DNA of 64,000 bases from Sphaerisporangium rufum (lineage in GTDB: Bacteria > Actinomycetota > Actinomycetes > Streptosporangiales > Streptosporangiaceae). The stretch is taken from positions 62,001 through 126,000 of the forward strand of contig NZ_BOOU01000041.1 in the NCBI RefSeq assembly GCF_016863395.1, written 5' to 3'. Made by a program: the position numbers and the translations under genes. The notes under the pieces were generated by a model. The model saw only the letters and a program-made list of their open reading frames with translations. It had not been told where the DNA came from and ran no database searches. This document shows, piece by piece, positions 23,884-49,552 of the stretch (the stretch's first letter is position 1; each line of letters starts with the position of its first letter).

Positions 23884-24026
23884 GACGGCACCGCCCCGCG
23901 CGCCCGGCCGGCCACCCACCGGTCACCGCCGGGCGCTGACACCGCCCCCGCCGGCTCGCCCGGGACGGCCGGGGTGGCGGCCGGGTGCGGCATGATGGCA
24001 GGAGTCCGCCTGAGGAGGTCCTGCCG

Positions 24027-25471: not shown

Positions 25472-25590
25472 GCACCGGCCGGGTTCGCGGGCGAGCGGCC
25501 CGGGGAACGGCGCAAACCACCCTTGCACCAGGGACCCGTTAGGCTGCATCCCGGTCCGTACCGGTCACCGTGATCCCAGGAGGAAGTGGC

Positions 25591-25683
25591 ATGAACAAGG
25601 AGTTCGCGATCGAGGTCGTGATGTGGCTGATCCCGGTCGCGATCCTGCTGGGCGTCGCCTACCTGGTCACCGCGACCGGCTGA
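25591..25683 (+). CDS. 30-residue single-helix membrane peptide
   Basis: The ATG at 25591 has a full AGGAGG ribosome site 7 bp upstream. It encodes MNKEFAIEVVMWLIPVAILL then GVAYLVTATG: an acidic/basic start, one membrane helix and a short polar end. The strong ribosome site and codon pattern support a real gene although it is only 93 bp. Function unknown; size and topology are those of small regulators or subunits of membrane complexes. It stands alone between the deaminase gene and the end of the convergent operon. Confidence 0.6.
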   Translation: MNKEFAIEVVMWLIPVAILLGVAYLVTATG

Positions 25684-25732
25684 CCGCGTGACCGGGTCCG
25701 GCCGCCACCACCCGGATTCCCGGACCCTCGGG

Positions 25733-25808
25733 CCGCACCGCACCGCACCGCACCGCACGGCACCGCACGGCACCGCACGGCCCGGCAGGCACGGCCCGGC
25801 AGGCACGG
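25733..25808. repeat. Short tandem repeats between convergent units
   Basis: The 172-bp gap between the 30-residue peptide gene and the end of the accessory operon consists largely of simple repeats: CACCG units, three copies of CACCGCACGG (25751-25780) and two copies of CCCGGCAGGCACGG (25781-25808). Copies of CACGGCCCGATC follow to the operon stop. No clear hairpin terminator for the operon was found in it. Confidence 0.7.
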
Positions 25809-25855
25809 CCCTGATCCCACGGCCCGATCGGCACGGCTCCAGCATCACGGCCCGA

Positions 25856-27811
25856 TCACCACGGGCGGGCCAACCGGCGGGCGTCCAGCCGCTCTCCCGC
25901 GGCCGGGCCGGCCTGGGTGAGCTCGGTGAGCCGGTCGGCCACCAGCCGGTCGCGATGCGCGGTGTAGGCGCGGGTGATCTCGGTCCAGCCGGGGCCGTTG
26001 GCGTGCGGGCCGAGCGGCCCGGCGCCGGCCACCCCGCCGGCCGTCCCGGCCGCCCACGGGTTCGGGCCGGTGCACACCGGCAGCACCCGGATGGGCACGC
26101 CGCCCACCGCCCCGGCCCGCGGATCGGAGCGCGACTCGGCGGCGTCCACCGCGTGCAGGGCGTCCGCCGGATCCAGCCGGTCCAGCCGGAACCCCTGGCC
26201 GGCCAGGAACGCCGCCCGGGTGACGAACTCGCCGGTCAGCAGCGGCCGCCGCTCGCGCAGATCCGCGATCATGGTGAGGGCGTGCACCGGCAGCGCCTCG
26301 CAGCCCAGCATCCGAAGCCAGGCGCCGCCGGACGGGTGCGCTCCGTGCGACGGGCCGGCCCGCGTCTCGCCGAACTCCACCGTCCGCAGGTACGCCGCGC
26401 CGGCGCCCGCGCCGGCCCCGCACGCCGGGCAGGTCTCCACCACAACGTCGAGCGGCGGCGGGTGGCAGGTGGTCCGCTGGAACACCGCGGCCTCCCGTCC
26501 GGCCAGTGCCCGGACGAGGTCTGCCAGATCCGGGCCGGCACCGTCCGGTGCGGCGCCGTCCGGTGCGGCATCGGCCGCCTCGTACCAGCTGCTCGGCGGC
26601 GCGGTGCCGCGCCGCCGGCCGGCCGCCAAACCTCGCTCCAGCGCGGCGACGCCGAGGTCGATCAGCACGTCCCGGCCGGCCGGGGTCAGCGCCGCGTGGT
26701 CGGCGGGCAGCAGCCCCGAACCGACCCAGCCGGCGACGGCCGCCCGCCGCAACGGCCCGGTGAGCGCGCCCGCGTCCGGCCCGCCGGCATCCGAGTGGCC
26801 GGTGCTGCCGCCGTCCGGGTGCCCGGTGGGGGCGGGGTCCGGGTGGCCGGTGCGGCCGGCGTCCAGGCCGAGCAGGTAGGCGGCCGCCCGCAGCTCCACC
26901 GCGGCCCGCGACTCCGCGACGGCCGCCGGGTCGAGCACCGGAGCGGCGGGGCGGTCCGGCCCGCCGAGCACCTCCTGCCGGGTGAGCCCGAGCACGCCGC
27001 ACCAGTCGCTCCACCGGCCGAACGGGTGCCGCACGCACTCTCCGCCCGCCGGGCGCAGGAAACCCACAAAGCACGTCGAGAAGGCGAACGTCACCGAGAA
27101 GTCCCAGCCGGACGCGCCGGCGGCGCGCATCACGGCCCCCTTGTCGGCGGGCGGCGCCGCCCGCCAGCGCTCGGGCCGCAGCTCGGCACCGGGCAGGAAC
27201 ACGGTGGCGCGCCGCACCCCGTGCGCGTCGTTGCCCGCGACGCTGCCCGTCTCGTCGTGGTCCAAAAGGTGCGGGACGGTGGCCAGCACGCACCGGTCAT
27301 GTTCCCGCAGGAACAGCTCGATCACCGTGTCGTCGTCGCGGACCTCGTCCGGGACGGCCGCCAGGTAACCGGCCAGGTCCGCGGCCAGCTTCACCGGCAG
27401 CAGCAGGCCCTGCGCGGGCGCCCACTCCCCCGGCACCAGCCGTGCCCAGGCGGCACCGGCCGCCGCGGCCTGCCGGACCGCGTAGGAGTTGTAGGGGGAG
27501 TTCCAGTGCGTGTAGAGGGCGAGCACGTCGTCGGGCCGGGCATCGACCGCGGCCAGCAGGTGCCCGGCGAACCCGGGCACCGGCAGCACGTCGTCCTGCA
27601 GCACCAGGTGATGGGTGGCCGCCGGGTCGTAGGCCTGCCAGGCCCGTTTCGCGGTGCGCAGCGGGCTGGGGAAGGAACCGGGATCGGGGTCCGGCACCGG
27701 GACCGGCCGCAGCGGCCGGCACGCCTCGGCCAGCCGGGGGATCCGGTCCGCCCGGTCCGGGTGGTACATCACCGCCACGCTGACGCGCGGGCCGGCCGCG
27801 GCGTCACGCAT
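25856..27811 (-). CDS. GT-A-like protein with unknown C-terminal half, last gene of accessory operon
   Basis: A 651-residue protein. Residues 1-230 look like a GT-A nucleotide-sugar fold: VSVAVMYHPDRADRIPRL, then HHLVLQDDVLPVPGFAGHLL, with QDDV in the metal-binding position, and GEWAPAQGLLLPVKLA. Residues about 250-651 match nothing I recognise. They contain repeats of TGHPD/TGHSD, a CPACGAGAGAG segment that could be a metal site, and a helical C-terminus. The ATG at 27811 overlaps the upstream GT2 stop by 8 bp. It is probably a sugar (or similar) transferase fused to a second activity serving the cluster product. I cannot say what the C-terminal half does. Confidence 0.8.
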   Translation of the reverse strand: MRDAAAGPRVSVAVMYHPDRADRIPRLAEACRPLRPVPVPDPDPGSFPSPLRTAKRAWQAYDPAATHHLVLQDDVLPVPGFAGHLLAAVDARPDDVLALYTHWNSPYNSYAVRQAAAAGAAWARLVPGEWAPAQGLLLPVKLAADLAGYLAAVPDEVRDDDTVIELFLREHDRCVLATVPHLLDHDETGSVAGNDAHGVRRATVFLPGAELRPERWRAAPPADKGAVMRAAGASGWDFSVTFAFSTCFVGFLRPAGGECVRHPFGRWSDWCGVLGLTRQEVLGGPDRPAAPVLDPAAVAESRAAVELRAAAYLLGLDAGRTGHPDPAPTGHPDGGSTGHSDAGGPDAGALTGPLRRAAVAGWVGSGLLPADHAALTPAGRDVLIDLGVAALERGLAAGRRRGTAPPSSWYEAADAAPDGAAPDGAGPDLADLVRALAGREAAVFQRTTCHPPPLDVVVETCPACGAGAGAGAAYLRTVEFGETRAGPSHGAHPSGGAWLRMLGCEALPVHALTMIADLRERRPLLTGEFVTRAAFLAGQGFRLDRLDPADALHAVDAAESRSDPRAGAVGGVPIRVLPVCTGPNPWAAGTAGGVAGAGPLGPHANGPGWTEITRAYTAHRDRLVADRLTELTQAGPAAGERLDARRLARPW

Positions 27812-29051
27812 GGTCGCCCCCGGCGGGGCCGGAGTCCGGCCCGCCGGGCCGCCACCAGACGTCCCGGGCGATCCGCGCCGCCTCCCGCTCCAGCAGGCCG
27901 ACGGCCCAGCGGGGATAGGCCCGCAGCGACGCCGCGAGCTCGGCCCGCTCGAACGTCCCGGCGTCGAACAGCGTGCGCATGCCGTACAGCGGGAGCACCT
28001 CGGTGCCGGCGGCGTGCCGGCGGACGTGCCGGGCGAGGCCGGGATCGGGCTCCAGGCAGACCGCGCCACCGGTGCCGGGCAGGCAGTCGGCGCCGAACAG
28101 CACCGTGCCCGGCGCCCCGGCCGGTGGCCCGGCCGGCGCGCCGCCCGGCGGGCCGACGCGGGCGCGGGCCAGGGCCAGCCGCCGCGGCGTCGCCGCGCGC
28201 AGCTCGGCCAGCCGGGGGTGCAACTCGTGCGCCCAGCAGACGGTCGACACCTCGACGACCGGGTCGACATGCTTCTTCAGCAGCAGCAACGCGTGCGCCT
28301 CATAGCTGGGCCGCAGCGCCGCAAGGTCGCGCTCGTGCGGGATCTCCACGATCGCCGCCGCCCGGGCCAGCCGGAACGCCAGCCCTTTCTCGTACAGGCG
28401 GCGGCCCAGCTCCACGTCCTCACCGCTCCAGCCGACGAAATCGGGGTCGAAGCCGCCGACCGAGCGGAACTCGTCGGCTCCGACGGACACGTTGCCGGTC
28501 CAGAAGAAGATCCACGGCGCGGCGTACCGGGTCAGGTCGTCGCCGAGCTCGCGGTAGGTGGGTTCCCGCATGTCGAGATGGCGGCCCGACTCCAGCAGCC
28601 GGCCGGCCAGCTCGTCGGGGTCGCGGTCGAGGTCGCCCGGCCCGATCCGGCCGGCCAGGTCGTGGTCGTAGCCGAACATGTAGCCGATCACCGCCTGGCC
28701 GGCGTCCCGGTGCGCCGCCAGGTGCGCCGAGAGCAGGCCGCGGGTGGCGAGGGTCCCGCTGTCCAGGAAGACCAGGATCCGCCCGGCGGCCCGGGCCGCG
28801 CCGAGGTTGCGCGCCTGCCCGGCCCGGAAGCCGTCGTCCTCCTGGTGGACGTAGCCGATCTCGAACGCCTCGTCCTGGGCCGCCACGACGGCGCGGGTGT
28901 CGTCCGTGGAGCCGTCGTCGGCGACGATCACCTCGTAGCGGTCCGGCGGCAGGTCCTGGCAGGCCAGGGTGCGCAGCGTGCGGGCCAGCTCCCGGGCGCG
29001 GTTGTAGGTGGGGATGATGACCGAGACGTCCGGCCGCGGCCGCTCAGCCAC
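27804..29051 (-). CDS. Family 2 glycosyltransferase
   Basis: A 415-residue GT2 enzyme. The GT-A domain (about 8-235) shows VSVIIPTYNRARELARTL, VIVADDGSTDDT, GQARNLGAARAAG, and FLDSGT in the DxD position. The acceptor-side GWSGEDVELGRRL is typical of GT2 proteins with a Glyco_transf_7C-type segment. The last ~110 residues (from GTVLFGADCLPG) form an additional small domain I do not recognise. The GTG at 29051 overlaps the substrate-binding protein stop by 8 bp, and its own stop overlaps the next gene. It probably glycosylates the cluster product or a carrier. Confidence 0.9.
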   Translation of the reverse strand: MAERPRPDVSVIIPTYNRARELARTLRTLACQDLPPDRYEVIVADDGSTDDTRAVVAAQDEAFEIGYVHQEDDGFRAGQARNLGAARAAGRILVFLDSGTLATRGLLSAHLAAHRDAGQAVIGYMFGYDHDLAGRIGPGDLDRDPDELAGRLLESGRHLDMREPTYRELGDDLTRYAAPWIFFWTGNVSVGADEFRSVGGFDPDFVGWSGEDVELGRRLYEKGLAFRLARAAAIVEIPHERDLAALRPSYEAHALLLLKKHVDPVVEVSTVCWAHELHPRLAELRAATPRRLALARARVGPPGGAPAGPPAGAPGTVLFGADCLPGTGGAVCLEPDPGLARHVRRHAAGTEVLPLYGMRTLFDAGTFERAELAASLRAYPRWAVGLLEREAARIARDVWWRPGGPDSGPAGGDHA

Positions 29052-30087
29052 TGATCGCCTCGCGCAGCACGCCGGTGTCCACCAGCTCCGAGACGGGAGG
29101 CAGCGAGGTGATCCCCCGGGCGCGGAGCCCGGCGTAGACCGGGCCGGACAGGTGCGCGGGGTCGATGGCGCACAGACCGCGCTCGGCGTCCTGGGTGCCG
29201 CGGATGAGGTCGGCCTGCACCTCGTTCTCCCGCCGGACGGCCGCCGGGTCGAGCCCGAGATCCTTGCCGTACTTGTCGAGGGTGAGCCGGACGCCGAGGG
29301 CCGGGTCGCGCAGGTCGTGCTGGTAGCCGCGGACCACGGCCCGCAGGTAGCGGACGAACCGCGCGCGGTCCGCCCGCAGGTCGGCCCGGCGGACCGCCAT
29401 GACGAGCGCGTAGTCCGGCAGCCCGAGCCTGCCCTGGGTCACGCTGACCACCTTCACGCCCTGCTGTTCCAGCGCCAGCGGCTGGGCGGTGACATAACAC
29501 GCCATGACATCGCAGTCCCCCTTGGTGAGCGCCGCGGTGCCGGCCCCCACCGGGACCCGTTCGTACTTGTTCGGCAGCCCGTTGACCTTCAGGATCGCCT
29601 CCACCAGCACCTCGGCCCCCGGCGACAGGCCGATGCGCCGGCCGACCAGGTCGGCGGCGGTGCGGACCGGGCGTTCGGCCAGGCTGACGAAGCCGCCCGG
29701 GGTCTCCTGGAACACCGCGCCGATGGCGACCAGGTCGGCCTCGTTCTCGCGCGCCTTGAGCAGCGCGGCGAAGTCCAGCAGCGCCACGTCGGCGCCGCCC
29801 GCGGTGACGACGCTCGCGGTGTCGGGGACGTTCGGCCCGCCGGCCAGCAACGGGGCCGAGAGCTTCTCCTTGGCGAAGTAGCCCTGGTCCTCGGCGATGT
29901 AGAAGCCGGCGAAGGTGACCGACTTCAGCCAGGACAATTGGGTCCGTACCGGCGTGCTGCCGGCCGGCCGGTCGCCGCCGGGCGCGGCGGCGCAGGCGGC
30001 GAGCACTCCCGCGGCGCCGAGCCCGCCGAGAGCCGTGGTGGTGCGGAGGAAACCGCGCCGGGTCAGTTGTTCCACCCTTGGTGCCAT
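29044..30087 (-). CDS. ABC importer substrate-binding lipoprotein (NMT1/THI5-like)
   Basis: A 347-residue solute-binding protein with a twin-arginine signal (RRGFLR, residues 10-15) running into lipobox LAAC. It would be folded in the cytoplasm, exported by Tat and lipid-anchored. The mature part opens TQLSWLKSVTFAGFYIAEDQGYF, the hallmark of the NMT1/THI5-like branch of the NitT/TauT family, whose members bind pyrimidine precursors, riboflavin, sulfonates or aromatic acids. AAAAGG precedes the ATG at 30087. It follows two permease genes and an ATPase gene, completing a full importer inside the oxygenase operon. The ligand cannot be read from sequence. Confidence 0.92.
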   Translation of the reverse strand: MAPRVEQLTRRGFLRTTTALGGLGAAGVLAACAAAPGGDRPAGSTPVRTQLSWLKSVTFAGFYIAEDQGYFAKEKLSAPLLAGGPNVPDTASVVTAGGADVALLDFAALLKARENEADLVAIGAVFQETPGGFVSLAERPVRTAADLVGRRIGLSPGAEVLVEAILKVNGLPNKYERVPVGAGTAALTKGDCDVMACYVTAQPLALEQQGVKVVSVTQGRLGLPDYALVMAVRRADLRADRARFVRYLRAVVRGYQHDLRDPALGVRLTLDKYGKDLGLDPAAVRRENEVQADLIRGTQDAERGLCAIDPAHLSGPVYAGLRARGITSLPPVSELVDTGVLREAISG

Positions 30088-30109
30088 CCTTTTTCTCGTT
30101 CTCGTGCGT

Positions 30110-30868
30110 TCAGTTCTTGTGCAGGGAGAGACGGTCGCGGGTGCGGCGCTCGGCCAGGTCCAGCACCTCGTACGCCAGCAGCGAGGTGGCCAGCGAGGTG
30201 AGCAGGATCGCCCACACCGTCGCGGTGTCCAGCAGTCCCTGCGATCGGGCCAGCAGTGCGCCGAGGCCGTCGTTGGCGGTGAGGAACTCCGCGGTGAGCG
30301 CGGCCAGGACGCCGACACACGAGGTGAGCTTGGCCGCCTGTACCAACTCCGGCAGGGCCACCGGGACCGAGACGTGACGCAGGACGACGCCCCGGCCGCC
30401 GCCGCCGACCCTGATGACGTCGGCCAGGGCCGGCGGCACCTGGCCCAGCGCCGCGCCGACCAGGGCGAATGCCGGGAAGAAGCTCATCATGGTGGCGGTG
30501 GCCAGCGCCGCGGGACCGCCGTAGCCGAACAGCGTCGCGATCAGCGGGCTGAGCGCGAGCACCGGCACGCACCGCATGATCATGCCGCCGGCCCGGGTCA
30601 ACGGCTCCAGGATCGGCAGCAGGTGGGCGGCCAGGGCGAGCGCGGTGCCGAAGGCCAGGCCGAGCGCCGTGCCGGCCGTGGCGCGCACCACGGTCAGACC
30701 GAGGGCGGCCGGATCCAGCAGGACCTTGGTGACCAGGCTGCGTGCCACCCGTCCCGGATCGGGCACCAGCAGGGCGGGCACCGCGCCGCCGGCCCGGACC
30801 GCGACCCAGGTCAGGGCCAGCACGCCGAGCAGCAGGAGGTAGCCGAGCAGCCGCCGGACACCGGTCAT
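30110..30868 (-). CDS. ABC importer permease (NitT/TauT type), second
   Basis: A 252-residue inner-membrane permease with about six helices. The cytoplasmic loop EAA-type segment reads LADVIRVGGGGRGVVLRHVSVPVALPELVQAAKL, where a Gly-rich stretch replaces the usual residues. The ATG at 30868 overlaps the stop of the other permease by 4 bp. It pairs with that permease to form a heterodimeric channel for the substrate delivered by the lipoprotein encoded 22 bp downstream. Confidence 0.9.
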   Translation of the reverse strand: MTGVRRLLGYLLLLGVLALTWVAVRAGGAVPALLVPDPGRVARSLVTKVLLDPAALGLTVVRATAGTALGLAFGTALALAAHLLPILEPLTRAGGMIMRCVPVLALSPLIATLFGYGGPAALATATMMSFFPAFALVGAALGQVPPALADVIRVGGGGRGVVLRHVSVPVALPELVQAAKLTSCVGVLAALTAEFLTANDGLGALLARSQGLLDTATVWAILLTSLATSLLAYEVLDLAERRTRDRLSLHKN

Positions 30869-31632
30869 GTCCGGCGTCCCGTCATCCCGCGCCGGCGGCG
30901 CACCGCCCGCGCCCAGCGGGTGAACACCGCGTACACCAGCGAGGAGACCGCCACCACCAGCACGCTCACCGCTCCCACCAGGCCGTCCTGCCCTTCGCGC
31001 AGCCCGGACACCAGCAGCACGCCGAGGCCGCGCTCGGCGCCGAACCACTCGCCGATCAGCGCGCCGAGCAGCGCGCCCGGCACCGCGAACCGGACGCCGT
31101 CGATCAGGTAGGGGAACGCGCCCGGTGCCTCCAGCAGGAGCAGGGCGCGCCGGCGCCCGGCGCCGTGCACGGCGAGCAGGTCGCGCAGCCGGCCGGGCAC
31201 CGCGCCCAGCCCGGCCTCGGCGGCCGAGAAGACCGGCAGCGCCACGCTGATCGCCGCGGCGATCACCGGGATCGCCGCCCGGTCCAGCGCAGCGGTCAGC
31301 AGCGGCCCCACCGCCACCAGCGGGACGGCGTAGCAGACGAGCATGAGGTGCTGCAGGGGGACGCGGGTGCCGGCGGCGGCGCGCGCCGTCCAGGCGGCCA
31401 CCACCGCGAGCACCGTTCCGGCCAGCAGGCCGGCCGCGGACGCGCGCAGGGTGACGCCCGCCGCGCCGGCCAGCAGTTCCCAGCGCCCGGTCAGCACGGC
31501 GGCCACCTCGCCGGCCCAGCCGGGCTCCGGCCGGTGCCCGGCGAGCAGCGCGGCGGCCGGGAACAGGGCGGGCAGCAGGGCCGGGATCAGGGCGGGCCCC
31601 GCGGCGGCGCGCCGCGGCGGGGGGCTAGCCAT
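30865..31632 (-). CDS. ABC importer permease (NitT/TauT type), first
   Basis: A 255-residue permease with about six membrane helices and a recognisable ATPase-coupling loop (LRDLLAVHGAGRRRALLLLEAPGAFPYLIDGVRFAVPGALLGALIGEWF). It is diverged from the other permease, indicating a heterodimer. The ATG at 31632 overlaps the ATPase stop by 8 bp. Confidence 0.9.
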   Translation of the reverse strand: MASPPPRRAAAGPALIPALLPALFPAAALLAGHRPEPGWAGEVAAVLTGRWELLAGAAGVTLRASAAGLLAGTVLAVVAAWTARAAAGTRVPLQHLMLVCYAVPLVAVGPLLTAALDRAAIPVIAAAISVALPVFSAAEAGLGAVPGRLRDLLAVHGAGRRRALLLLEAPGAFPYLIDGVRFAVPGALLGALIGEWFGAERGLGVLLVSGLREGQDGLVGAVSVLVVAVSSLVYAVFTRWARAVRRRRGMTGRRT

Positions 31633-32404
31633 CGAGCGCCTCCAGGCACTCGCGGACCGCGTCCCGCAGCGCGTCGTCGGCGGGCGCGGGCCGCGGCCGC
31701 GGCAGCGGCACGGTGATCTCCCGGACGATGGTGGCCGGCCGGCCGGACATGACCACGACCCGGTCGGCGAGCAGCACCGCCTCCTCCACCGAATGGGTGA
31801 CCAGGATGGTGGCCGGCCGGACCGCGCTCCAGATGCGCTCCAGCTCCCCGTTGAGCCGGCGCCGGGTGATGGCGTCCAGCGCGCCGAACGGCTCGTCCAT
31901 CAACAGCAGCGACGGCTCCATGACCAGGGCCCGCGCCAGAGCGGTCCGCTGGCGCATCCCGCCGGACGCCTGGTGGGGGCGCAGGTGCGCCAGCCCGGCC
32001 AGGCCGACCAGCTCCAGAGCCTGCTCGACGCGGTCGGAGTCCGGGCGGCGCCCGGCCACCCGGTAGACGAACTCCACGTTGCGCCGCAGCGACGCCCAGG
32101 GCAGCAGCGCCGGGTCCTGGAACACCATGCCGATCCGGTGCTGCCGGGCCAGCGCGGCCGGCGGCCCGCCCCAGCAGGTGACCGTGCCGGTGGTGGGCCG
32201 TTCCAGCCCGGCCACCATGCGCAGCAGCGTGGTCTTGCCGCAGCCCGACGGGCCGAGGATCGCCAGGAACTCCGCCTCGCCGACCTTCAGGCTGACGTCC
32301 TGGACGGCCGCCACCTGTCCCCGGCCGGAGCCGTAGGCCTTGGACAGGGCCTGGGCGTGGATGGCCGCGCCGTCGCCGGCGGTCCGCCGGTCAGGCGTTC
32401 TCAT
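31625..32404 (-). CDS. ABC importer ATPase (SsuB/TauB type)
   Basis: A 259-residue nucleotide-binding subunit. Walker [15 protein letters not shown]-loop [12 protein letters not shown], signature [15 protein letters not shown], Walker [14 protein letters not shown] and the H-loop [10 protein letters not shown] are all intact. The sequence type is that of nitrate/sulfonate/taurine importers. I chose the ATG at 32404, which overlaps the Rieske gene's 3' end by 14 bp in another frame; an in-frame ATG 11 codons earlier is possible but lies deeper in that gene. Confidence 0.93.
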
Positions 32405-33539
32405 CGGGCCCCGCCCCAAGCGACGCGGGCTCCGCACCGAGCGACGCGGGCTCCACCCCGAGCGACGCGGTACGCCGGTCCGGTCCGGGCAGGCGGGCGG
32501 CGGGCCATCGCCCGGCGGGCGGCCCGGCCTGCCGGGCGTAGGACTGCCAGCGGGCGCGCAGCAGGCGCTCGGCCGCGGCCGACACCGGGTTGAGCTCGCA
32601 GCGCGGCTCGTCAGGCCGGCTCTCCCAGGCGACCTGCTCGCGCACGCCGATCCAGGCGTCCTGCTCCTGGATGCGGGCGAGCACCAGGCGGCGGAAGAAC
32701 GGCTCGGCGACCTGGCGCAGCCGCCGGGTGCCGCGCCGGGCCCGGATGTACAGGGTGATGTAGACGGTGACCCGGTCGCGTTCCTCCGGCCGGAAGAAGA
32801 CCCACACCACCATGCCGTCGCCGAGGACGGCCTGGTGGTGGGGGTAGTCGTAGTGCACCTCCAGCGGGTGGCTGACCGTGGGCGCGGCCCGGTCGGCGCC
32901 GAGCAGCAGCCGCAGCACGCGCTCGGCCCGCCCCCGCCCGCTGGTCACCTCGTAGGAGCCGGAGACCCGGCCGTCGTCGGCGGTCAGGCCGAGCAGCCGC
33001 AGCCGCGACCACGGCTGGTACTTGCGGTGCAGGTGGAAGTGGGTGTAGTCCATCCCGTTGATCAGGCCGATGCCGTAGTGGTTGTGGAACACCCGGTCCT
33101 GGCGGAAGGAGAACCATTCGCCGCCGTCGTCCCAGGCCGAGGTGTCCGGCGGTGGCGGCGGCAGCGGGTCCACCGGCTCGGGCACGAACCACACCAGGCC
33201 GCTGCGCTCGGTGACCGGGAAGCCGCGCACCCGCAGCCGGGGCAGCTCCTCGTCTTCCTCCCAGTACGGGATGCGCTCCAGCGCGCCGTCCGGGCCGAAC
33301 TCCCAGCCGTGGTAGGGGCACACGATGCGGCAGTCGCGCACCTCCCCCTCGTGCAGGGCCACCCGGCGGTGCGCGCAGGCGTTGTCCAGGCAGTGCGCCG
33401 CGCCGGCCCGGTCGCGGAAGACGACGTAGGAGCGGCCGAGGAAGCGCACCTCGATGGCCTGTCCGGGGCGCAGCTCGTCGGTACGGCAGGCGGGATACCA
33501 GCAGCGGGGGTCGACGCCCACGTCGCAGAGGTTGCTCAT
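32391..33539 (-). CDS. Rieske non-heme iron oxygenase, alpha subunit
   Basis: A 382-residue oxygenase. The Rieske [2Fe-2S] ligands are C55-x-H57 and C74-x2-H77 (CAHRR and CPYHGWE). The mononuclear iron site is D164-YTH167-FHLH171, with a later carboxylate in EQDAWIG. Such enzymes hydroxylate, demethylate or desaturate small organic molecules using electrons from a separate ferredoxin/reductase, which is not in the operon. The 382-residue single-component length fits the monooxygenase-like group rather than alpha3beta3 ring dioxygenases. The last 25 residues are a tandem EPASLGA repeat. The ATG at 33539 follows AGGAGAAAG and overlaps the preceding stop (ATGA). Confidence 0.93.
   Translation of the reverse strand: MSNLCDVGVDPRCWYPACRTDELRPGQAIEVRFLGRSYVVFRDRAGAAHCLDNACAHRRVALHEGEVRDCRIVCPYHGWEFGPDGALERIPYWEEDEELPRLRVRGFPVTERSGLVWFVPEPVDPLPPPPPDTSAWDDGGEWFSFRQDRVFHNHYGIGLINGMDYTHFHLHRKYQPWSRLRLLGLTADDGRVSGSYEVTSGRGRAERVLRLLLGADRAAPTVSHPLEVHYDYPHHQAVLGDGMVVWVFFRPEERDRVTVYITLYIRARRGTRRLRQVAEPFFRRLVLARIQEQDAWIGVREQVAWESRPDEPRCELNPVSAAAERLLRARWQSYARQAGPPAGRWPAARLPGPDRRTASLGVEPASLGAEPASLGAGPDENA
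32418..32470 (-). repeat. 21-bp tandem repeats in the Rieske C-terminal tail
   Basis: Two full 21-bp units and one partial (32418-32438, 32439-32459, 32460-32470; core AGCGACGCGGGCTCC) encode the EPASLGA repeat at the end of the oxygenase. They are in frame and close to the overlap with the ATPase start. Confidence 0.8.
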
Positions 33540-34531
33540 CTTTCTCCTGTGATCCGTGCACGGACCTGGGCGAGCGCCCGGGCCCGGTCGGTGATGCCGT
33601 CGTCGGCCTCCCACCGGCCGGCCGCCACGTCGCGGGCGAACGCGTCCAGCTGGTACCGGTAGGAGGTGTCGGATCCGGGCACCGGGTCCGGGGCGCCGGC
33701 GCGCGGGCTCCACCGGGCGGCGAACCGCCGGACCGGTGCGGCGCCGCCCGGCAGCACCGGCAGGAAGGGCGCGCGCAGGCCGAGGGTGCCGCGGCTGCCG
33801 GTGACCCGGGCGGCGCACACCGGGCCGGCCGCCCGCAGCGAGGCCCACAGCCGGGCCCGCACCGGGCCGGACCGCAGCGCCACCACCCCGGTCAGGTCCA
33901 CCCCGGTCCGGCCGATCTCCGCGCGGGCGCCGGTCACCTCCACCGGGGCCGCGGTGAGGTGCCGCACCAGGTCGACGCCGTAGCAGCCGACGTCCATCAC
34001 CGCGCCGCCGTCCAGCGCCGCCGACAGCCGGATGTCGCCCGGCCGCTCCAGCCGCCAGCCGAACCGGACGTCGATCCGGCGGACGGCGCCGACCGCCCCG
34101 TCCCGCACCGCCGCCAGGGCGGCGGCGACGGCGGGATGCGCGCGGTAGTGGAACGCCTCGCGGACGATCACCCGCCGCCGGCGCGCCTCGGCGAGCAGCG
34201 CGGCGACCAGCGCGGGGTCGCGGCCGAGCGGCTTCTCGCACAGCACGTGCTTGCCGGCCCGCACCGCGTCCAGGGCGAGCGGCAGGTGCGTCGCGTTGGG
34301 CGTGGCCAGGTAGACCGCGTCGACGTCGTCGCGGGCGAGCAGGTCGGCCCAGCCGCCGGCCGCCGGAACGGACCAGGCGCGGGCGTAGCGGCGGGCCCGC
34401 GCGGCGTCCCGGGAGGCCGCGAACGCCACCACGGCGGGCGAGCCGTCGCGGATCGGCCGGTGGATCGCCCAGTCGGCGATCCAGCCGGTGCAGGCGAGCC
34501 CGAGCCGGACCGGCGGCGCGGTATCCGTCAC
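33536..34531 (-). CDS. Gfo/Idh/MocA-family oxidoreductase
   Basis: A 331-residue NAD(P)-dependent dehydrogenase. The Rossmann domain (1-120) has LGLACTGWIADWAI, AVYLATPNATHLPLALDA and KHVLCEKPLG, with the catalytic-type EKP Lys. The C-terminal domain has EAFHYRAHPAV and GGAVMDVGCYGVDLVRHL. Family members oxidise or reduce sugar, inositol or related hydroxyl groups, or reduce imines and biliverdin. The GTG at 34531 overlaps the stop of the preceding dioxygenase gene (GTGA). It probably acts on the same substrate as the oxygenases. Confidence 0.92.
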   Translation of the reverse strand: MTDTAPPVRLGLACTGWIADWAIHRPIRDGSPAVVAFAASRDAARARRYARAWSVPAAGGWADLLARDDVDAVYLATPNATHLPLALDAVRAGKHVLCEKPLGRDPALVAALLAEARRRRVIVREAFHYRAHPAVAAALAAVRDGAVGAVRRIDVRFGWRLERPGDIRLSAALDGGAVMDVGCYGVDLVRHLTAAPVEVTGARAEIGRTGVDLTGVVALRSGPVRARLWASLRAAGPVCAARVTGSRGTLGLRAPFLPVLPGGAAPVRRFAARWSPRAGAPDPVPGSDTSYRYQLDAFARDVAAGRWEADDGITDRARALAQVRARITGER

Positions 34532-35445
34532 CTCGCCCCCACCGGAGCGGCCCGGATCAGGCAGCGCTGCAGCCAGCGGTCGGTGCCGTCGTAGCGCGGC
34601 CGGTAGCCGGTCCGGCCGTGCACCACGTGCACGTTGTCGATGAACAGCAGGTCGCCGGCCCGCAGGGTCACGGTGGCCGCCTCCGCCGCGATGGCCTCGC
34701 GCAGGGTCCGCAGCGCGGCGTCGTGACCGGGTCCGGTGGCGCACAGGGCGTCGGCGTAGTTGAAGCGCGGCCGGTCGCGCCACCGGGTCACCACCGGTTT
34801 CGGCTCGGTCGTCGTGCCGCCGGGCAGCCGGAAGGCGAAGGCCGGCTCGGCCAGCGCGCGCCGGGTGGCCTCGTCGAACCGCGGCCACAGGTCCAGCAGG
34901 TCGCACACCAGGGTCCGCGCCTCCTGGTCCGGGCGCAGGCACAGCAGGATCACCCCGTCGGGGGTGTTCGGCCGGAACGCCGTCTCGGTGTGCATCTCCA
35001 GGTGGACCGCGTTGCTCGCGCTCTGCCCGGTCGCCTGGTCGGGCAGCGGGTACAGGTTCTGCACCCGGTCGCCGCCGTGCCAGTCGGCGAAGGAGATCAC
35101 CTCGCCGGCCAGGCCGGCCAGCGCCAGCAGCAGCCGCTCGGTGCCGACCGGACGGCGCACCTCCACGTACGGGCGGCCGGGGGTCGGCGGGAGGCCGGCC
35201 GGGACCGCCACCCCGGCGACGCGCAGCACGCCCGCCGCGCCGAGGTCCCGGCCGAAGCGCGCCGCCGCCGCGGCCACCTCCGGAACCAGGCCGGCCGGCC
35301 ACTCCGGGACGGCCGCCTCGGCGGGCTCCCCGGCCGGCCGGTCGCCGCCGTAGGCGCCGGACGCGCCGGCCGCCGACCACCGGGCCACCTCCGCGGCCTG
35401 GCCCGGCGGCAGCCGCAGCCGCGCGCCGCGGCGGGTGTCAGGCAA
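34528..35445 (-). CDS. Clavaminate-synthase-like Fe(II)/2-oxoglutarate dioxygenase 1
   Basis: A 305-residue non-heme iron dioxygenase. The iron triad is H152-x-E154 (HTET) and H276 in VVHGR; R290 in YDGTDRWLQR should bind 2-oxoglutarate. The HTET and FIDNVHVVHGRTGYRPRYDGTDRWLQR pattern is that of the CAS-like group, including amino-acid hydroxylases such as VioC, AsnO and lysine hydroxylases, so a free or bound amino acid is a likely substrate. The only start matching the operon geometry is TTG at 35445, which overlaps the radical SAM stop by 8 bp; a GTG about 20 codons in is the alternative. Confidence 0.9.
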   Translation of the reverse strand: MPDTRRGARLRLPPGQAAEVARWSAAGASGAYGGDRPAGEPAEAAVPEWPAGLVPEVAAAAARFGRDLGAAGVLRVAGVAVPAGLPPTPGRPYVEVRRPVGTERLLLALAGLAGEVISFADWHGGDRVQNLYPLPDQATGQSASNAVHLEMHTETAFRPNTPDGVILLCLRPDQEARTLVCDLLDLWPRFDEATRRALAEPAFAFRLPGGTTTEPKPVVTRWRDRPRFNYADALCATGPGHDAALRTLREAIAAEAATVTLRAGDLLFIDNVHVVHGRTGYRPRYDGTDRWLQRCLIRAAPVGAR

Positions 35446-36553
35446 GGCTGAACACCCCCGAGAACACCGGGAGCTTGAACTCGTCGATGATCTCGTTGAA
35501 CCGGACGTGCACGTCGATCAGGCCGTCGAGGTCGTAGACGAACGGGATCTGCTGCTGCTTGACCACGAACGCGGTGAACACCGTGGGCGAGGGGACCACG
35601 CCGAGCTCGGCGATCGTCCGCAGGCCGCGCAGGGTGTCCTCGGCCGGTTCGATGCCGGCCAGCAGGCAGCTGCCCACGTTGTGCACGCCGAACACCTCGA
35701 CCGCGTCGGTGAAGACGTCGACGTAGTCCTCGAAGGTGATGCCGGATTTGTAGCCGTGGATGAGCCGGCGCCGGTAGTCCGGCCGCACCACCTCGATACC
35801 GCTGTTGAACCGGGACACGCCCGACTCGCGCAGTGCGGTCAGGTACTCGATCCGCCGGGCGTGGTCACCGATGAGGCTCGGCGGGATCACCTGCGAGACG
35901 TAGACGCCTTCCCGGTAGCCGGCCTCGCGCAGCGCCCGCGCCATCCGGCGGTGCCGGTCGAGTTCGAGGTCCTCGTTGGTGATGCTGCCGGTGCACAGCC
36001 ACACGATGTCGTACTTGGTGTGGAAGTCGGTGGCGTGGTCGCGCACGTACTCCAGGCACTTGTCGAAGTTGGCCTGGTAGGTGCCGGTCCGGGTGCCCTG
36101 GACGGCCAGCACCTCCCATTCGCTCTCCTTGAAGCAGAAGTCGCAGGAGTAGGCGCAGTAGGTGTGGTAGTCGAAGACGAAGCTGCGGGTGCCGTTCTCC
36201 CGCAGCAGCCCGAAGTTGTACATGCCGGTGGGCGCCCGGTCGTCGTCGACGAACTGCTCGCAGGCGACCTCCCGTTCAGCGCCGTTGAGCGAGGCGCGCA
36301 GGCGCGCGCCGTCGAACACGAACGGGGACGACTGGTTCACCCGTACCGTGATCTTCTTCTGGAAGTCCGGCCCGCTGATCACGAGTTCCACCCGCGGCAG
36401 CACCTGGCCCAGCAGGGGAAGCCGGATCGCGGTGGTCGCGAAGCGCACGCCGTCGCGCAGCGCGCCGAGGCGGAAGACCTCCTCGACGCGCACGCGGTCG
36501 AGATTGGCCAGGGTCAGCGGAGTCAGCGAATCACGGGGAGTGCCTCGTGGCAT
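35438..36553 (-). CDS. Radical SAM enzyme of unrecognised family
   Basis: A 371-residue radical SAM protein. The [4Fe-4S] motif is C133-AYS-C137-DF-C140 (CX3CX2C) in YHTYCAYSCDFCFKE, followed by a barrel with a GGE-like region and IEVVRPDYRR, SCLLAGIEP and TVFTAFVV strands. About 130 residues precede the cluster motif (a beta-rich N-terminal domain containing VRVNQSSPFVF), much more than in minimal radical SAM enzymes. No C-terminal SPASM Cys-rich region is seen. It will generate a 5'-deoxyadenosyl radical for a difficult C-H or rearrangement step. The ATG at 36553 follows GGAGG. Confidence 0.9.
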   Translation of the reverse strand: MPRGTPRDSLTPLTLANLDRVRVEEVFRLGALRDGVRFATTAIRLPLLGQVLPRVELVISGPDFQKKITVRVNQSSPFVFDGARLRASLNGAEREVACEQFVDDDRAPTGMYNFGLLRENGTRSFVFDYHTYCAYSCDFCFKESEWEVLAVQGTRTGTYQANFDKCLEYVRDHATDFHTKYDIVWLCTGSITNEDLELDRHRRMARALREAGYREGVYVSQVIPPSLIGDHARRIEYLTALRESGVSRFNSGIEVVRPDYRRRLIHGYKSGITFEDYVDVFTDAVEVFGVHNVGSCLLAGIEPAEDTLRGLRTIAELGVVPSPTVFTAFVVKQQQIPFVYDLDGLIDVHVRFNEIIDEFKLPVFSGVFSLA

Positions 36554-36595
36554 GTGATCCTCCGTCGCAGGATGGCGTCGCCGGGACCGGCGAGC

Positions 36596-37735
36596 TCACT
36601 TGTCGAGCAGGCGCCGGGCGTTGCCGCCGAGCAGTGCCGGGCGCAGGCCCGCGGGCAGCCCGGCGAGCACCGGTTCCCACTCCTCGGCCGGGCGGAACGG
36701 GGTGCCGGGGTGGGGGAAGTCGGTGGCGAGCAGGACCCGGGGGTGCAGTTCCTCCGGCAGCGCGTCCAGCCGCTCGCCGAGCCCGGTCGAGAAGAAGAAG
36801 TCGTCGCGGTCGCACAGGTAGTGCCGCGGCGGGTGGTCGGGAGTGGGCCGCCCGGTCTCGCGCAGCGTCTCGAACGACTCCTGCGCCCGCTCCAGCCAGG
36901 CGGGCAGCCAGCCGATGTTGCACTCGTGGAAGGCGAACCGCACCCGGGGGTACCGGTCGGGGACCCGGGCGTCCAGCAGCCCGGCCAGGAACAGCTGCCC
37001 GGGCAGGATCTCGTTGACGTGGTTGAAGAAGGCGCCCGCGCCCGGCGCGGAGATGCTGGTCGGCAGCGGCATCGGCAGCAGGTGCGGCACCGCCACCTTG
37101 TGCAGGTGCACCACCATGCCGTGCTCCTGGACGGCCGCCCAGAACGGGTCGAGGCCGTCCAGGCCGCCTGCCACGCCGTGCGGCAGCATCACGTGCCGGA
37201 ACCCCGCGCCGGCCAGCGCCGCCACCTCGGCCGCGACCGGCGCGTGCGGGGACAGCGCCAGCTGCCCCACCGGGACCAGCCGGTCGGGGGCGGCGGCGGC
37301 GAAATCGGTGATCCACCGGTTGTAGGCGCGCAGGTGGGCGACCGCGTACGGCGAGGCCGGGTCCAGCTCGCGCGGCCAGATCAGCCCGAGCGACGGGAAC
37401 AGCACGGTGGCCTCGATCCCGTTGGCGTCCAGCCAGGCCAGCCGGGCCGGGCCGTCGTAGGACGCGGGCGGGCTCGACTCCCGGTAGGAGGCGTACTCGC
37501 CGCGGCGCAGCGTGTTCCAGTCGACGATCGGGCGGCCGGGGTCGTACGGCACGCCGCCGAGCCGGCGGATCAGCCGGGACGGCCGTCCCTCGATGATGAG
37601 GCGGTCCCCGTCGGCGGGATCGCGCTCCACCCGCAGGCAGTTCTCCCGGAACTCCGGGTCGATGTACTCGGTCCACAGCGTGCCCGGTTCGACCACGTGC
37701 CCGTCGGAGTCGACGACCGGATGACCATTCCACAT
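36596..37735 (-). CDS. Amidohydrolase family 2 (ACMSD-like) metalloenzyme
   Basis: A 379-residue TIM-barrel metal hydrolase or decarboxylase of the COG2159 group. VVDSDGHVVEP holds the first metal ligands, VVHLHK and FHECNIGWLPAWL further ones, and LLATDFPHPG the catalytic Asp region. Family members decarboxylate aromatic or muconate acids (ACMSD, 5-carboxyvanillate and resorcylate decarboxylases) or hydrolyse amides. The ATG at 37735 follows GGAGG. It is 42 bp from the radical SAM gene and 30 bp from dioxygenase 2, in the same operon. A decarboxylation step on the shared substrate is the simplest reading (inference). Confidence 0.88.
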   Translation of the reverse strand: MWNGHPVVDSDGHVVEPGTLWTEYIDPEFRENCLRVERDPADGDRLIIEGRPSRLIRRLGGVPYDPGRPIVDWNTLRRGEYASYRESSPPASYDGPARLAWLDANGIEATVLFPSLGLIWPRELDPASPYAVAHLRAYNRWITDFAAAAPDRLVPVGQLALSPHAPVAAEVAALAGAGFRHVMLPHGVAGGLDGLDPFWAAVQEHGMVVHLHKVAVPHLLPMPLPTSISAPGAGAFFNHVNEILPGQLFLAGLLDARVPDRYPRVRFAFHECNIGWLPAWLERAQESFETLRETGRPTPDHPPRHYLCDRDDFFFSTGLGERLDALPEELHPRVLLATDFPHPGTPFRPAEEWEPVLAGLPAGLRPALLGGNARRLLDK

Positions 37736-37765
37736 GCGCGGGTCCTCCTTTCGCGGTGGCGCCGG

Positions 37766-38806
37766 TCAGGACCGGGCGGCGGGCTGTCGCAGGGCCTGCC
37801 GGTAGTCGGTGGGGTAGTTGGCGTACCGCCGGTCGGACACCAGCCGCCCCTCGGCCCGGTGCGTGCCGTCCAGCAGCCGGGTGGTGACGAGCATGCGCTG
37901 CAGCCAGCGGTCGGTGCCGTCGTAGGCGGGGACGATGGCGTTGCGCCCGTGCACGACGCGCCCGTTGTCCAGGACCAGCAGGTCCCCCCGCTCCAGGGCG
38001 ATGTCCACCGCGGTCGCCAGCACCCGCCGGCCGAGGTCGTCCAGCGCCCGCTGCGACTCGGCGTCGGTGGCGACCAGGTCGCCCACGTACTCGATGACCC
38101 GGGTCCCGTCCCGCTCGCTGATGATCGGCTGCGGCTCGGTCAGCCCGCGGCCGTCGAGCACGACGACCGGATTGTCGGTCTCGAAGGCGTACCGCGGCCG
38201 GGCGAGCACCGCGATCTCGGCCTCGCTCAGCGTGCCCACCACCCGGCGGATGTCGGCCACCCGGGTCTTCGCCCGGCCGGTGGGGTCGGCGCGCAGGCAG
38301 AGCAGGGCCAGGTAGTCGGGTGACACGTCGCGGAACGGCGTCTCGGTGTGCAGCAGGAACTCCACCGCGTTCGAGCCGAACTGCAGGTCCCGGTGGGCCT
38401 GGATGGGGTACTTGTTGTGCACCAGGTGCCCGGAGTCCCACTCCAGGTAGCTGAACGGCTCGCCCAGCGCGTCCGCGGCGCAGGCGAGGACCGCCTCGGT
38501 GCCCACCGCGCGGATCTCCGGAAGCGCGGCGAACGATCGCCGGGGGGTGGGCGGCAGATCGTGGGGGATGGGCAGGTTTCGGACGAGCAGCGCGCCCGGC
38601 CCCCGGGCGGCCCGCAGGTCGGCGAGCGCCGAGCGCATCCGCTCGGGCAGCGCGCGCGGCCGTTCGCGCACCTGGTCGATAAACGGGTCGAATGCCTGAT
38701 AGGGGTTGGCGGTCACCGGGGTGATCTCCGACCGGAAAAGCTCTCTCTCCTCGTCGGAAAGTTCCACCACCGAAATGTCGGTCAGCGGCTCACGCGATTC
38801 TGGCAT
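37766..38806 (-). CDS. Clavaminate-synthase-like Fe(II)/2-oxoglutarate dioxygenase 2, first gene of accessory operon
   Basis: A 346-residue dioxygenase related to dioxygenase 1 in the core but clearly distinct in its N-terminus. Iron ligands are H153-x-E155 (HTET) and H286 (VVHGR); R300 in YDGTDRWLQR binds 2-oxoglutarate. The C-terminal extension RRYANYPTDYRQAL is longer than in enzyme 1. Two paralogous hydroxylases in one operon suggest sequential oxidation of one molecule. The ATG at 38806 has only a weak ACGGA upstream. As first gene it defines the operon promoter region (38807-39008), which holds a GGTAGG/CCTACC palindrome. Confidence 0.9.
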   Translation of the reverse strand: MPESREPLTDISVVELSDEERELFRSEITPVTANPYQAFDPFIDQVRERPRALPERMRSALADLRAARGPGALLVRNLPIPHDLPPTPRRSFAALPEIRAVGTEAVLACAADALGEPFSYLEWDSGHLVHNKYPIQAHRDLQFGSNAVEFLLHTETPFRDVSPDYLALLCLRADPTGRAKTRVADIRRVVGTLSEAEIAVLARPRYAFETDNPVVVLDGRGLTEPQPIISERDGTRVIEYVGDLVATDAESQRALDDLGRRVLATAVDIALERGDLLVLDNGRVVHGRNAIVPAYDGTDRWLQRMLVTTRLLDGTHRAEGRLVSDRRYANYPTDYRQALRQPAARS

Positions 38807-38899
38807 GACATTGTCCGTTCCGTTCGCGGAGTTGATCGCTTGCCGTGGAACCTCGAATTCCGGCGAGCATGCCGGCGAGGGTCCGGGCGAACCGGATCA

Positions 38900-38915
38900 G
38901 GTAGGACCGCCTACC
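38900..38915. promoter_or_regulatory. Palindrome upstream of the accessory operon
   Basis: GGTAGG-ACCG-CCTACC is a perfect 6+6 inverted repeat 94 bp before the first operon gene and about 95 bp after the end of the LuxR-family regulator gene. It is a candidate binding site for that regulator or a short attenuating hairpin. No clear -35/-10 pair was found between it and the ATG at 38806. The rest of the 202-bp gap is unremarkable apart from an AT-richer patch near 38965-39010. Confidence 0.4.
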
Positions 38916-39008
38916 ACTCCTTTCGGCGGTTCCGTCGCCCGATGTCGGGACCGGTTCGGCAGAGCTCGATTAAACAGCGGGCCGCTTGCCGAGTCATTGG
39001 GGAAACCC

Positions 39009-41780: not shown

Positions 41781-42083
41781 GGTTCCTCTCGGGGCCGGCC
41801 CCGCCCGCCGGCACCGGCGGTGGAGCGAATCACCATCGCCATCGAGCGAAGAGCACTAGTTTATGGCAGAACTTCAGGGTTTTCCCGGAGGCTCACGCCA
41901 GAAATGTCTTGTTTACTCCATTCGGTATGTCGAATACGGTTCTCTTGATCGAATGCCAATGCGGCGGCTCGCCGGATCGCGGGGGTGGCACGCCGGCCGT
42001 CCCACCGCCACCGACCCGGCCGGTGGAACTTTCCGGACCGGCCGCCGAACCGTCACGACCTTCACGAAGAGGTATTTCAACCG
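41781..42083. promoter_or_regulatory. AT-richer divergent promoter region
   Basis: The 303 bp between the LAL regulator and the fused ABC exporter is distinctly lower in GC than its surroundings, especially 41840-41970. It holds the inverted repeat ATTCG-N6-CGAAT (41920-41935). It must contain both divergent promoters, but I could not assign convincing hexamers. A GAAGAGG (about 42065-42071) precedes the exporter start. No gene is visible in it. Confidence 0.5.
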
Positions 42084-43910: not shown

Positions 43911-43928
43911 ACCGGGTCCGGCTCCGCC

Positions 43929-43953
43929 GCCCCCCGCCGGGCCGGTGGGGGGC
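43929..43953. terminator. Hairpin between convergent exporter and aspS genes
   Basis: GCCCCCC (43929-43935) pairs with GGGGGGC (43947-43953) with an 11-nt loop in the 50-bp gap between the two stop codons. It may serve both genes. Confidence 0.5.
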
Positions 43954-43960
43954 GTGCCGG

Positions 43961-45259: not shown

Positions 45260-45287
45260 GGAAACTCCGCCGTCAGAACGCCCTGGA

Positions 45288-45546
45288 GTCCCTGGCAGGC
45301 GCGGGCGAGCAGGGACCTTGCACTCGCGGTGCCACCGCACCTTCGCCCCGCCGCCGGCGGGGCCTCGTCGCGGCCCGGTCACGGAGGCCGTCCGGCGGGG
45401 CATTGGACGGCCGCCCTGGCGGTGCCGTCGTTCCTCCCCGCAGCTCGGAAGGGTCTTCGGCCGGGGGGCGAGGCCGCCTTTCCAGCACCGGCGGCTCTCT
45501 GCTGACTCGCCTGATCCAGGCCTACTTGGCTTCGTCGCAGCTTTGC
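45288..45546 (-). ncRNA. T-box leader upstream of aspS
   Basis: The roughly 285-nt leader of aspS carries hallmarks of a tRNA-sensing T-box RNA. In order on the minus strand: GACGAAGCCAAGTAG, then CAGAGAG opening a GCCGCC/GGCGGC hairpin with GGTGCTGGAAA in its loop (45501 to about 45473), and the invariant T-box bulge GGTGGCACCGCG (45336-45325). After it a GTCCCTG/CAGGGAC hairpin (45288-45316) can act as terminator or sequestor. A GAC triplet (45455-45453), the Asp codon, lies where the specifier is expected, but its pairing context was judged by eye. A TACACT -10 (45557-45552) sits just before the leader. Uncharged tRNA-Asp would switch on synthetase expression. Confidence 0.75.
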
Positions 45547-45592
45547 GCCCGAGTGTATCCGAGATCGCGGCCGCGGCGCGCCGGCGGGACCG

Positions 45593-49443: not shown

Positions 49444-49552
49444 ACCTCGGCGGCCGCCGGGACGCGCGGCGGCCGGTCTAGGGTGAGAAGAACGGGGAAT
49501 GGGTGCGGCCGCGCCGCCACGCGTCCGGCGGCCCGCACGGGGAGGGGACCCG

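Follow-up and report, generated by a model that had tools for sequence, protein, structure and literature searches.

A candidate biosynthetic island in Sphaerisporangium rufum with an archaeal-type aspartyl-tRNA synthetase as proposed self-resistance enzyme

The producers of mupirocin, indolmycin, albomycin, and obafluorin carry a resistant second tRNA synthetase, distantly related to the first and linked to the biosynthetic cluster. A described example is the mupirocin-insensitive IleRS2 (PMC9437257). As natural inhibitors of aspartyl-tRNA synthetase (AspRS), the available part of a 2021 review names only compounds of the microcin C type and, apart from these, tobramycin, which acts on yeast tRNA-Asp (PMC7916415). 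Here, we analyze a stretch of 64,000 nucleotides from Sphaerisporangium rufum (contig NZ_BOOU01000041.1, positions 62,001 to 126,000 of the forward strand), which we call the window, and in it a twelve-gene operon of oxygenases, a radical S-adenosylmethionine (SAM) enzyme, and glycosyltransferases that lies close to a gene for an archaeal-type AspRS. The genome (G000) has 7.8 Mb and belongs to genus g1. Our best explanation, to which we give somewhat better than an even chance, is that we are looking at a 24-kb biosynthetic island, that the product of its operon is a small compound, derived from an amino acid, which inhibits bacterial AspRS, and that the island AspRS serves as self-resistance. 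The sequences show the gene content, the borders of the island, the link to AspRS, the leader, and the absence of aspS; the product, its target, the insensitivity of the island enzyme, and every reaction are things that we infer.

Such a system would work like those of mupirocin or indolmycin. The likeness to those producers lies in the distantly related second synthetase linked to a cluster; the window cluster differs in that the synthetase is an AspRS, that a T-box-like leader precedes it, and that two genomes lack the housekeeping gene. With microcin C, the window cluster would share AspRS as the target, but microcin C is a peptide-nucleotide whose self-immunity works by acetylation and hydrolysis (MccE, MccF) (PMC7916415). 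Among the 17 cluster genes, Pfam finds no ThiF adenylyltransferase of the microcin C type; no search aimed at a short precursor peptide was made.

Second AspRS genes in actinomycetes have been noted before. A 2014 survey counted genomes that lack AsnRS and have a further AspRS, most of them Actinomycetales, and left the reason for the second actinomycete enzyme open; in its available part it draws no link from that enzyme to a cluster, an actinomycete T-box, or resistance (PMC4206432). The table of a 2022 review, in the part available, gives no auxiliary function for a second AspRS (PMC9437257). In the open-licence literature, mostly judged by title and the start of the abstract, we found no report of AspRS self-resistance in an actinomycete and none of this cluster, which agrees with the remark in the first-pass annotation that no described pathway is known with this set of genes. 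A resistant second synthetase is a known principle. New, as far as these searches go, are AspRS as the target, the set of enzymes, the leader, and the lack of the housekeeping gene.

The island and its AspRS

The AspRS gene, its leader, and the island as a whole have these positions.

43961..45259, minus strand: archaeal-type (non-discriminating) aspartyl-tRNA synthetase, proposed self-resistance enzyme; NF003483 at 543 bits (cut-off 353); likely start ATG at 45259
45298..45547, minus strand: T-box-like leader with a GAC (Asp) specifier, preceding the AspRS; full Rfam model RF00230 at 35.4 bits, E-value 2.7e-6 in 501 bases
about 25472..49552, no strand: the whole island, 24 kb, from the RibD pair to the DsbH-like gene; empty site in G220, other contents in G216, G217, G218, and G223

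The island AspRS, which was not among the genes named in the first-pass annotation, is distinct from the housekeeping type (NF003483 vs. TIGR00459), and its nearest solved structure is the AspRS2 of Thermus, also non-discriminating and archaeal-type. With both Pfam domains, the class II motifs (read by eye in the alignment), and the OB-fold, it looks catalytically complete.

We searched the order (345 genomes) for the radical SAM protein of the cluster. At E ≤ 0.001 there are 34 genomes with a match, of which only 7 hold a near full-length relative (E below 1e-160); we refer to these as carriers, and they are two Sphaerisporangium (g1), two Microbispora (g30), and three Actinocorallia (g4). 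One scan of genome contigs, from which the window genome was possibly left out, reports 6 loci including Streptacidiphilus melanogenes, and a class-level search finds 2 of 394 genomes, both already known. Eight carriers are known in total. In all 8 known loci, no more than 7.5 kb separate the radical SAM gene from an AspRS, and the distance in the four full clusters is about 7.4 kb. The archaeal-type AspRS that adjoins the radical SAM gene in Actinocorallia and Streptacidiphilus belongs to another lineage and shares about 40% identity with that of the window. In a tree of 37 AspRS sequences the two lineages stand apart on a very long 100/100 branch, and each has members outside the cluster. 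That two such unlike enzymes are joined to one radical SAM family suggests that an AspRS is needed there, and its presence in 8 of 8 loci fits target-based self-resistance.

The unit is also larger than the operon. The first-pass annotation was right about the genes from 25856 to 38806, but it ended the unit there, and the conserved run reaches about 49443: from a glycosyltransferase (GT-A-like) gene to an ABC exporter pair, it is common to four genomes, two of Sphaerisporangium and two of Microbispora. Sphaerisporangium corydalis (G215) and the two Microbispora have the same genes in the same order as the window, with the one exception that the Gfo/Idh oxidoreductase gene is absent from both Microbispora clusters, and recurrence in three other genomes is more than chance would give.

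The borders follow from the comparison with congeners. The RibD and DsbH-like genes share one contig in 10 of the 10 congeners searched, and we inspected the interval between them in five of the ten (G216, G217, G218, G220, G223). The complete, one-contig G220 has an empty site, with about 260 bp from the RibD pair to the DsbH-like gene. G216, G217, and G218 hold other DNA there, with no cluster genes at the threshold used, and G223 holds an AspRS and no biosynthetic genes. These empty or other contents indicate that 25472-49552 is an insertion at a variable site. Within the genus (L128, L129, L130, L131, L092), the interval ranges from the roughly 260 bp of G220 through other DNA of several to 13 kb to the 24 kb of G000 and G215. 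Microbispora has the same cluster genes between different flanks; the AspRS sits within the island borders and keeps its internal position in Microbispora despite those other flanks. The RibD-type pair at 23985-25471 was considered as part of the pathway and rejected, as it is chromosomal flank, found on the contig of the DsbH-like gene in the same 10 of 10 congeners.

The T-box-like leader and the missing aspS

GAC is a codon for Asp. In the leader upstream of the island AspRS, the stem I signature, the specifier, and the antiterminator core fit the downstream gene, by the full-length model and by alignment. When eight leaders are aligned, AGTAG, AGAGAG, GAAGAC, and GGTGGCACCG line up, GAC is invariant in all eight, and we read the GAC just after GAA as the specifier. 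The 35.4 bits of the window's leader are below the Rfam gathering score of 93, and a T-box search of the whole window at that score returns no match. Ten AspRS loci were searched at E ≤ 0.1, and nine report a T-box (30.3-71.9 bits, one partial). A strict core motif, checked in the leaders of 27 of the 37 AspRS loci of the tree, is present in 14, namely 4 of 4 full clusters and 10 of 19 others, and all 14 read GAAGAC. Several genera of the order also have leaders of this kind that read Asp in front of archaeal-type AspRS genes that are not part of the cluster (L055, L060, L071, L077, L101, and others). T-boxes before ileS were reported for some actinobacteria in an earlier in-silico survey (PMC2494555).

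At E ≤ 1e-60, 119 of the 345 genomes have an archaeal-type AspRS, and in 114 it scores over the cut-off. It is present in 7 of 7 carriers vs. 112 of 338 other genomes in the order (Fisher 5e-4, a test that here and below treats related genomes as independent, so that its values overstate independence). Within the 15 genomes of Microbispora, 2 of 2 carriers have it and 0 of 13 others do (Fisher 0.0095).

The bacterial type (TIGR00459) is found in 337 of 345 genomes. In the genus of the window, bacterial aspS is absent in both carriers and present in all 9 non-carriers (Fisher 0.018), and order-wide it is absent in 2 of 7 carriers vs. 6 of 338 others (Fisher 0.009). The locus where aspS belongs reads hisS, aspS, convergent gene in that order in G220, with other genes before the convergent gene, and G217 and G223 keep aspS at that locus. 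The flanks run on without a break in G000 (contig C81) and G215 (contig C77): the neighbouring stop codons are 61 and 111 bp apart, and a search of this locus at E ≤ 1 picks up no fragment of aspS. A search with PF00152 in G000 has the island gene as its single match (a loose first look had given two candidates). With aspS missing from its conserved locus in two carriers, the window genome and G215 apparently have no AspRS other than the island copy. In a tree of the locus in six genomes, G000 and G215 are not sisters, and G215 groups with G217 and G223 (95%); two separate losses of aspS are thus possible, not proven.

Reduced loci and the role of the AspRS

One pathway would be hard to defend if the neighbours of its genes varied freely, as the first-pass annotation pointed out. 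They are steady in four genomes; the four distant carriers keep one to three of the twelve genes, always the radical SAM gene, plus an AspRS. Actinocorallia G015 and Streptacidiphilus have the AsnO-like oxygenase TauD1, the amidohydrolase-fold protein, the radical SAM enzyme, and AspRS, and Actinocorallia G014 is without a TauD1 orthologue. In Actinocorallia G016, the best matches to TauD1 and to the amidohydrolase-fold protein are distant (E-values 4e-35 and 1e-20). Either the reduced loci have decayed, or the product depends at its core on the radical SAM step. The G016 pair (L039:15451-17987) stands beside a DUF5753 regulator and a DUF6879 gene, both of which are also near the pair in G014. 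In the draft genome of Streptacidiphilus melanogenes, the AspRS match (L046:11247-13020) is split by about 450 bp, and TauD1 (L046:7792-8789) is in two pieces, by decay or a sequencing fault.

Several observations weigh against self-resistance. Archaeal-type AspRS is not confined to the cluster, being present in those 112 of 338 genomes that have no radical SAM gene, and the Fisher values cited for its association with the carriers count relatives as independent. The five carriers outside g1 hold both AspRS types and keep the bacterial aspS. Six non-carriers are also without a bacterial-type AspRS (G017, G018, G036, G045, G051, G056). G223 has its lone AspRS at the island site alongside an intact bacterial aspS elsewhere. 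As for the leader, every T-box score is below the Rfam gathering score, the Actinocorallia G014 AspRS locus reports no T-box by Rfam at E ≤ 0.1, and the strict motif is found in 0 of 4 Actinocorallia and Streptacidiphilus loci. Finally, the core in G016 is reduced to radical SAM and AspRS.

Two of the six non-carriers just named, G051 and G056, have an archaeal-type AspRS, and incomplete assemblies are possible.

The alternative that survives best is that the AspRS is a passenger: T-box-controlled archaeal-type backup enzymes would have spread in the order, and one of them landed beside an unrelated operon at a variable site. The wide distribution (119 of 345 genomes) agrees with this, as does the stand-alone AspRS at the same site in G223 (L092:9522-10799), which is 88-90% identical to that of the cluster and has a GAC leader. 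T-box-like leaders also occur at AspRS genes outside the cluster, whose neighbours (ten proteins, four loci) have no biosynthetic theme. But a passenger would not be expected to come from two distant lineages and still be found in 8 of 8 radical SAM loci, nor to separate the two Microbispora carriers from the other 13 genomes, nor to occupy the same internal position in Microbispora between other flanks. We consider a passenger unlikely.

Alternatively, the AspRS could be a biosynthetic enzyme giving aspartyl-adenylate or Asp-tRNA to the radical SAM pathway. The smallest version of the locus, radical SAM plus AspRS in G016, speaks for this, and the G016 radical SAM gene is under purifying selection (ratio of nonsynonymous to synonymous rates, dN/dS, of 0.16 vs. 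G014). Against it, the enzyme is apparently the sole AspRS in two genomes and must there charge tRNA for translation, it has the full class II motifs and the OB-fold, and Pfam finds no tRNA-dependent transferase in the 17 cluster genes. A biosynthetic role seems to us improbable, somewhat more so than that of a passenger.

The operon and its proposed pathway

A minus-strand operon of twelve genes was annotated at first pass, and twelve genes do fill 25856-38806. Its statement that most genes overlap by 4-14 bp holds for 8 of 11 junctions with the starts as chosen, which we picked from overlap, ribosome-binding sites, and homology; at the remaining three junctions the genes are 22, 42, and 30 bp apart. 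All of the 12 genes but one, 25856-27811, have a Pfam match.

37766..38806, minus strand: TauD1, AsnO-like Fe(II)/2-oxoglutarate oxygenase; Pfam TauD; AsnO (2og5) at E-value 2.9e-44 with a 5-row profile; HTE...H site
36596..37735, minus strand: amidohydrolase-fold protein, predicted dinuclear oxygenase (ARO); Pfam PF04909; PtmU3 at E-value 7.9e-25
35438..36553, minus strand: radical SAM enzyme, core gene; Pfam Radical_SAM at 31.7 bits (cut-off 29.5); CX3CX2C
34528..35445, minus strand: TauD2, second AsnO-like oxygenase; Pfam TauD; AsnO at E-value 8.8e-30
33536..34531, minus strand: Gfo/Idh/MocA oxidoreductase by Pfam; not in Microbispora
32391..33539, minus strand: Rieske oxygenase, 382 amino acids; Pfam Rieske; NCBIfam 4beta-methylsterol monooxygenase at 133.7 bits, under the cut-off of 600
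31625..32404, minus strand: ABC importer ATPase; Pfam and NCBIfam searches
30865..31632, minus strand: ABC importer permease; Pfam
30110..30868, minus strand: ABC importer permease; Pfam and NCBIfam searches
29044..30087, minus strand: NMT1/THI5-type binding protein; Pfam NMT1; nearest solved structure ThiY (3ix1), E-value 1.7e-12
27804..29051, minus strand: GT2 glycosyltransferase; Pfam Glycos_transf_2
25856..27811, minus strand: GT-A-like protein, C-terminal part of unknown fold; phage glucosyltransferase phrog_854 over residues 10-193, E-value 1.9e-13

Beyond 38806, the conserved run also holds a regulator and exporters.

39009..41780, minus strand: LAL-type regulator; GerE and AAA_16; kept in the four full clusters
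42084..43910, plus strand: ABC-2 exporter; domain search and cluster comparison
45593..47458, plus strand: ABC exporter half 1; domain search and cluster comparison
47455..49443, plus strand: ABC exporter half 2; domain search and cluster comparison

Pfam scans of the 17 cluster genes give no adenylation, condensation, or ketosynthase domain, bearing out the earlier observation that no nonribosomal peptide synthetase (NRPS) or polyketide synthase is present.

Both TauD1 and TauD2 match AsnO, the L-asparagine 3-hydroxylase, best among solved structures, and they have the same metal triad (HxE...H; H153, E155, and H286 are invariant in 9 of 9 TauD1/TauD2 rows). AsnO is tabulated with L-asparagine as substrate and its D241N variant with L-aspartate (PMC9968057). 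In contrast with Asp241 of AsnO, TauD1 has a Glu at this position in 5 of 5 sequences, with an offset of 24 to the AsnO numbering that we infer; the Glu may speak for an amide or cationic side chain in the substrate. For TauD2, two alignments disagree on the residue at 241. Also unlike the case of AsnO, the window cluster has no NRPS to use hydroxyasparagine.

The amidohydrolase-fold protein had been called ACMSD-like. Enzymes of the ACMSD type have an N-terminal HxH and a catalytic His. The metal-site residues here are not of that kind, with DGH (D11, H13) and E271 in 7 of 7 sequences and no HxH, and we reject an ACMSD-like hydrolase or decarboxylase. The nearest solved relative is PtmU3, followed by SfbO and DitZ. 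PtmU3, AibH2, and SfbO are amidohydrolase-related dinuclear oxygenases (PMC10811679; PMC10401708), and the metal ligands of LynB7 are D11, H13, H197, E252, D320, and H323 (PMC10127204). Mapped by motif through PtmU3, the window protein has the same ligand set (D, H, H, E, D, H) as D11, H13, H212, E271, D339, and H342, all invariant in 7 of 7 sequences. Given the shared PF04909 fold family and six ligands, we predict a dinuclear oxygenase of the PtmU3/LynB7 type. Unlike those systems, the window cluster is without a small Rieske ferredoxin gene and has the 382-residue Rieske oxygenase.

The radical SAM protein is 66-83% identical to that of the window in seven other genomes, with dN/dS of 0.16-0.42 in seven pairs. 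Its AlphaFold model has pLDDT 72.6 and pTM 0.75, and its profile has just two matches among PDB sequences, LuxF-like flavoproteins at E-values 0.14 and 0.16. An assignment to MSMEG_0568 (Nit1C-type) was rejected: residues 236-322 alone match, at 42.5 bits vs. a cut-off of 303.7. For the GT-A-like protein, Pfam and NCBIfam gave no match, the profile has no match in the PDB at E ≤ 1, and the AlphaFold model (mean pLDDT 41.4) is too poor to use.

That the operon is instead catabolic, degrading an imported sulfonate, aromatic, or pyrimidine, as the NMT1 importer with its ThiY-like binding protein, a permease weakly SsuC/TauC-like by NCBIfam, and the presence of Rieske and TauD families would allow, is in our opinion very improbable: both dioxygenases are nearest to amino acid hydroxylases, the two glycosyltransferases, the LAL regulator, the exporters, and the AspRS are conserved with the operon, and it is very rare (7 of 345 genomes; 6 loci in the contig scan). 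The preference of the first-pass annotation for biosynthesis is thus the more likely reading, with LAL regulator and exporters conserved. It took the scaffold to be probably a small amino acid, sugar, or pyrimidine; the sugar and pyrimidine options find no backing apart from the family-level ThiY-like match of the binding protein, and the amino acid can be narrowed, as AsnO homology together with the supposed target suggests that the scaffold is probably Asn/Asp-like. From the two glycosyltransferase genes, the product is probably glycosylated.

The inhibitor pathway with AspRS self-resistance would then run as follows. An AsnO-like oxygenase, the dinuclear amidohydrolase-fold oxygenase, and the radical SAM enzyme would build a warhead from an Asn/Asp-like amino acid, which TauD2, the Rieske oxygenase, and, where present, the Gfo/Idh enzyme would modify. 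The GT2 and GT-A-like proteins would probably glycosylate it. The NMT1 importer may take up a building block or return the product, the ABC exporters would secrete the product, and the LAL regulator would switch the cluster on. The producer would survive because its archaeal-type AspRS escapes inhibition by the product, and the leader reading GAC would raise AspRS synthesis in response to uncharged tRNA-Asp, the state expected under inhibition of AspRS. The original aspS is missing from the window genome, where the island copy would stand in for it.

A broader proposal goes further, and we place it a little short of an even chance: this would be the first actinobacterial antibiotic family acting on AspRS, with an Asn/Asp warhead made by radical SAM, AsnO-like, and amidohydrolase-fold dinuclear oxygenases; the archaeal-type AspRS of 119 of 345 genomes, many behind Asp T-box leaders, would be inducible resistance spread against such compounds; and some producers would have dropped aspS.

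Because this rare cluster of soil actinomycetes points to its own likely target, what was an anonymous oxygenase operon becomes a testable antibiotic lead in publicly named strains before the molecule is known, and the set of radical SAM, amidohydrolase-fold, and AsnO-like oxygenases is enzymology without a described pathway in the literature searched. If the proposal is true, it would offer an explanation for the second AspRS found in many actinomycetes, and a bacterium whose own aspS gave way to a resistance copy would stand as a clear example from nature of the replacement of an essential gene.

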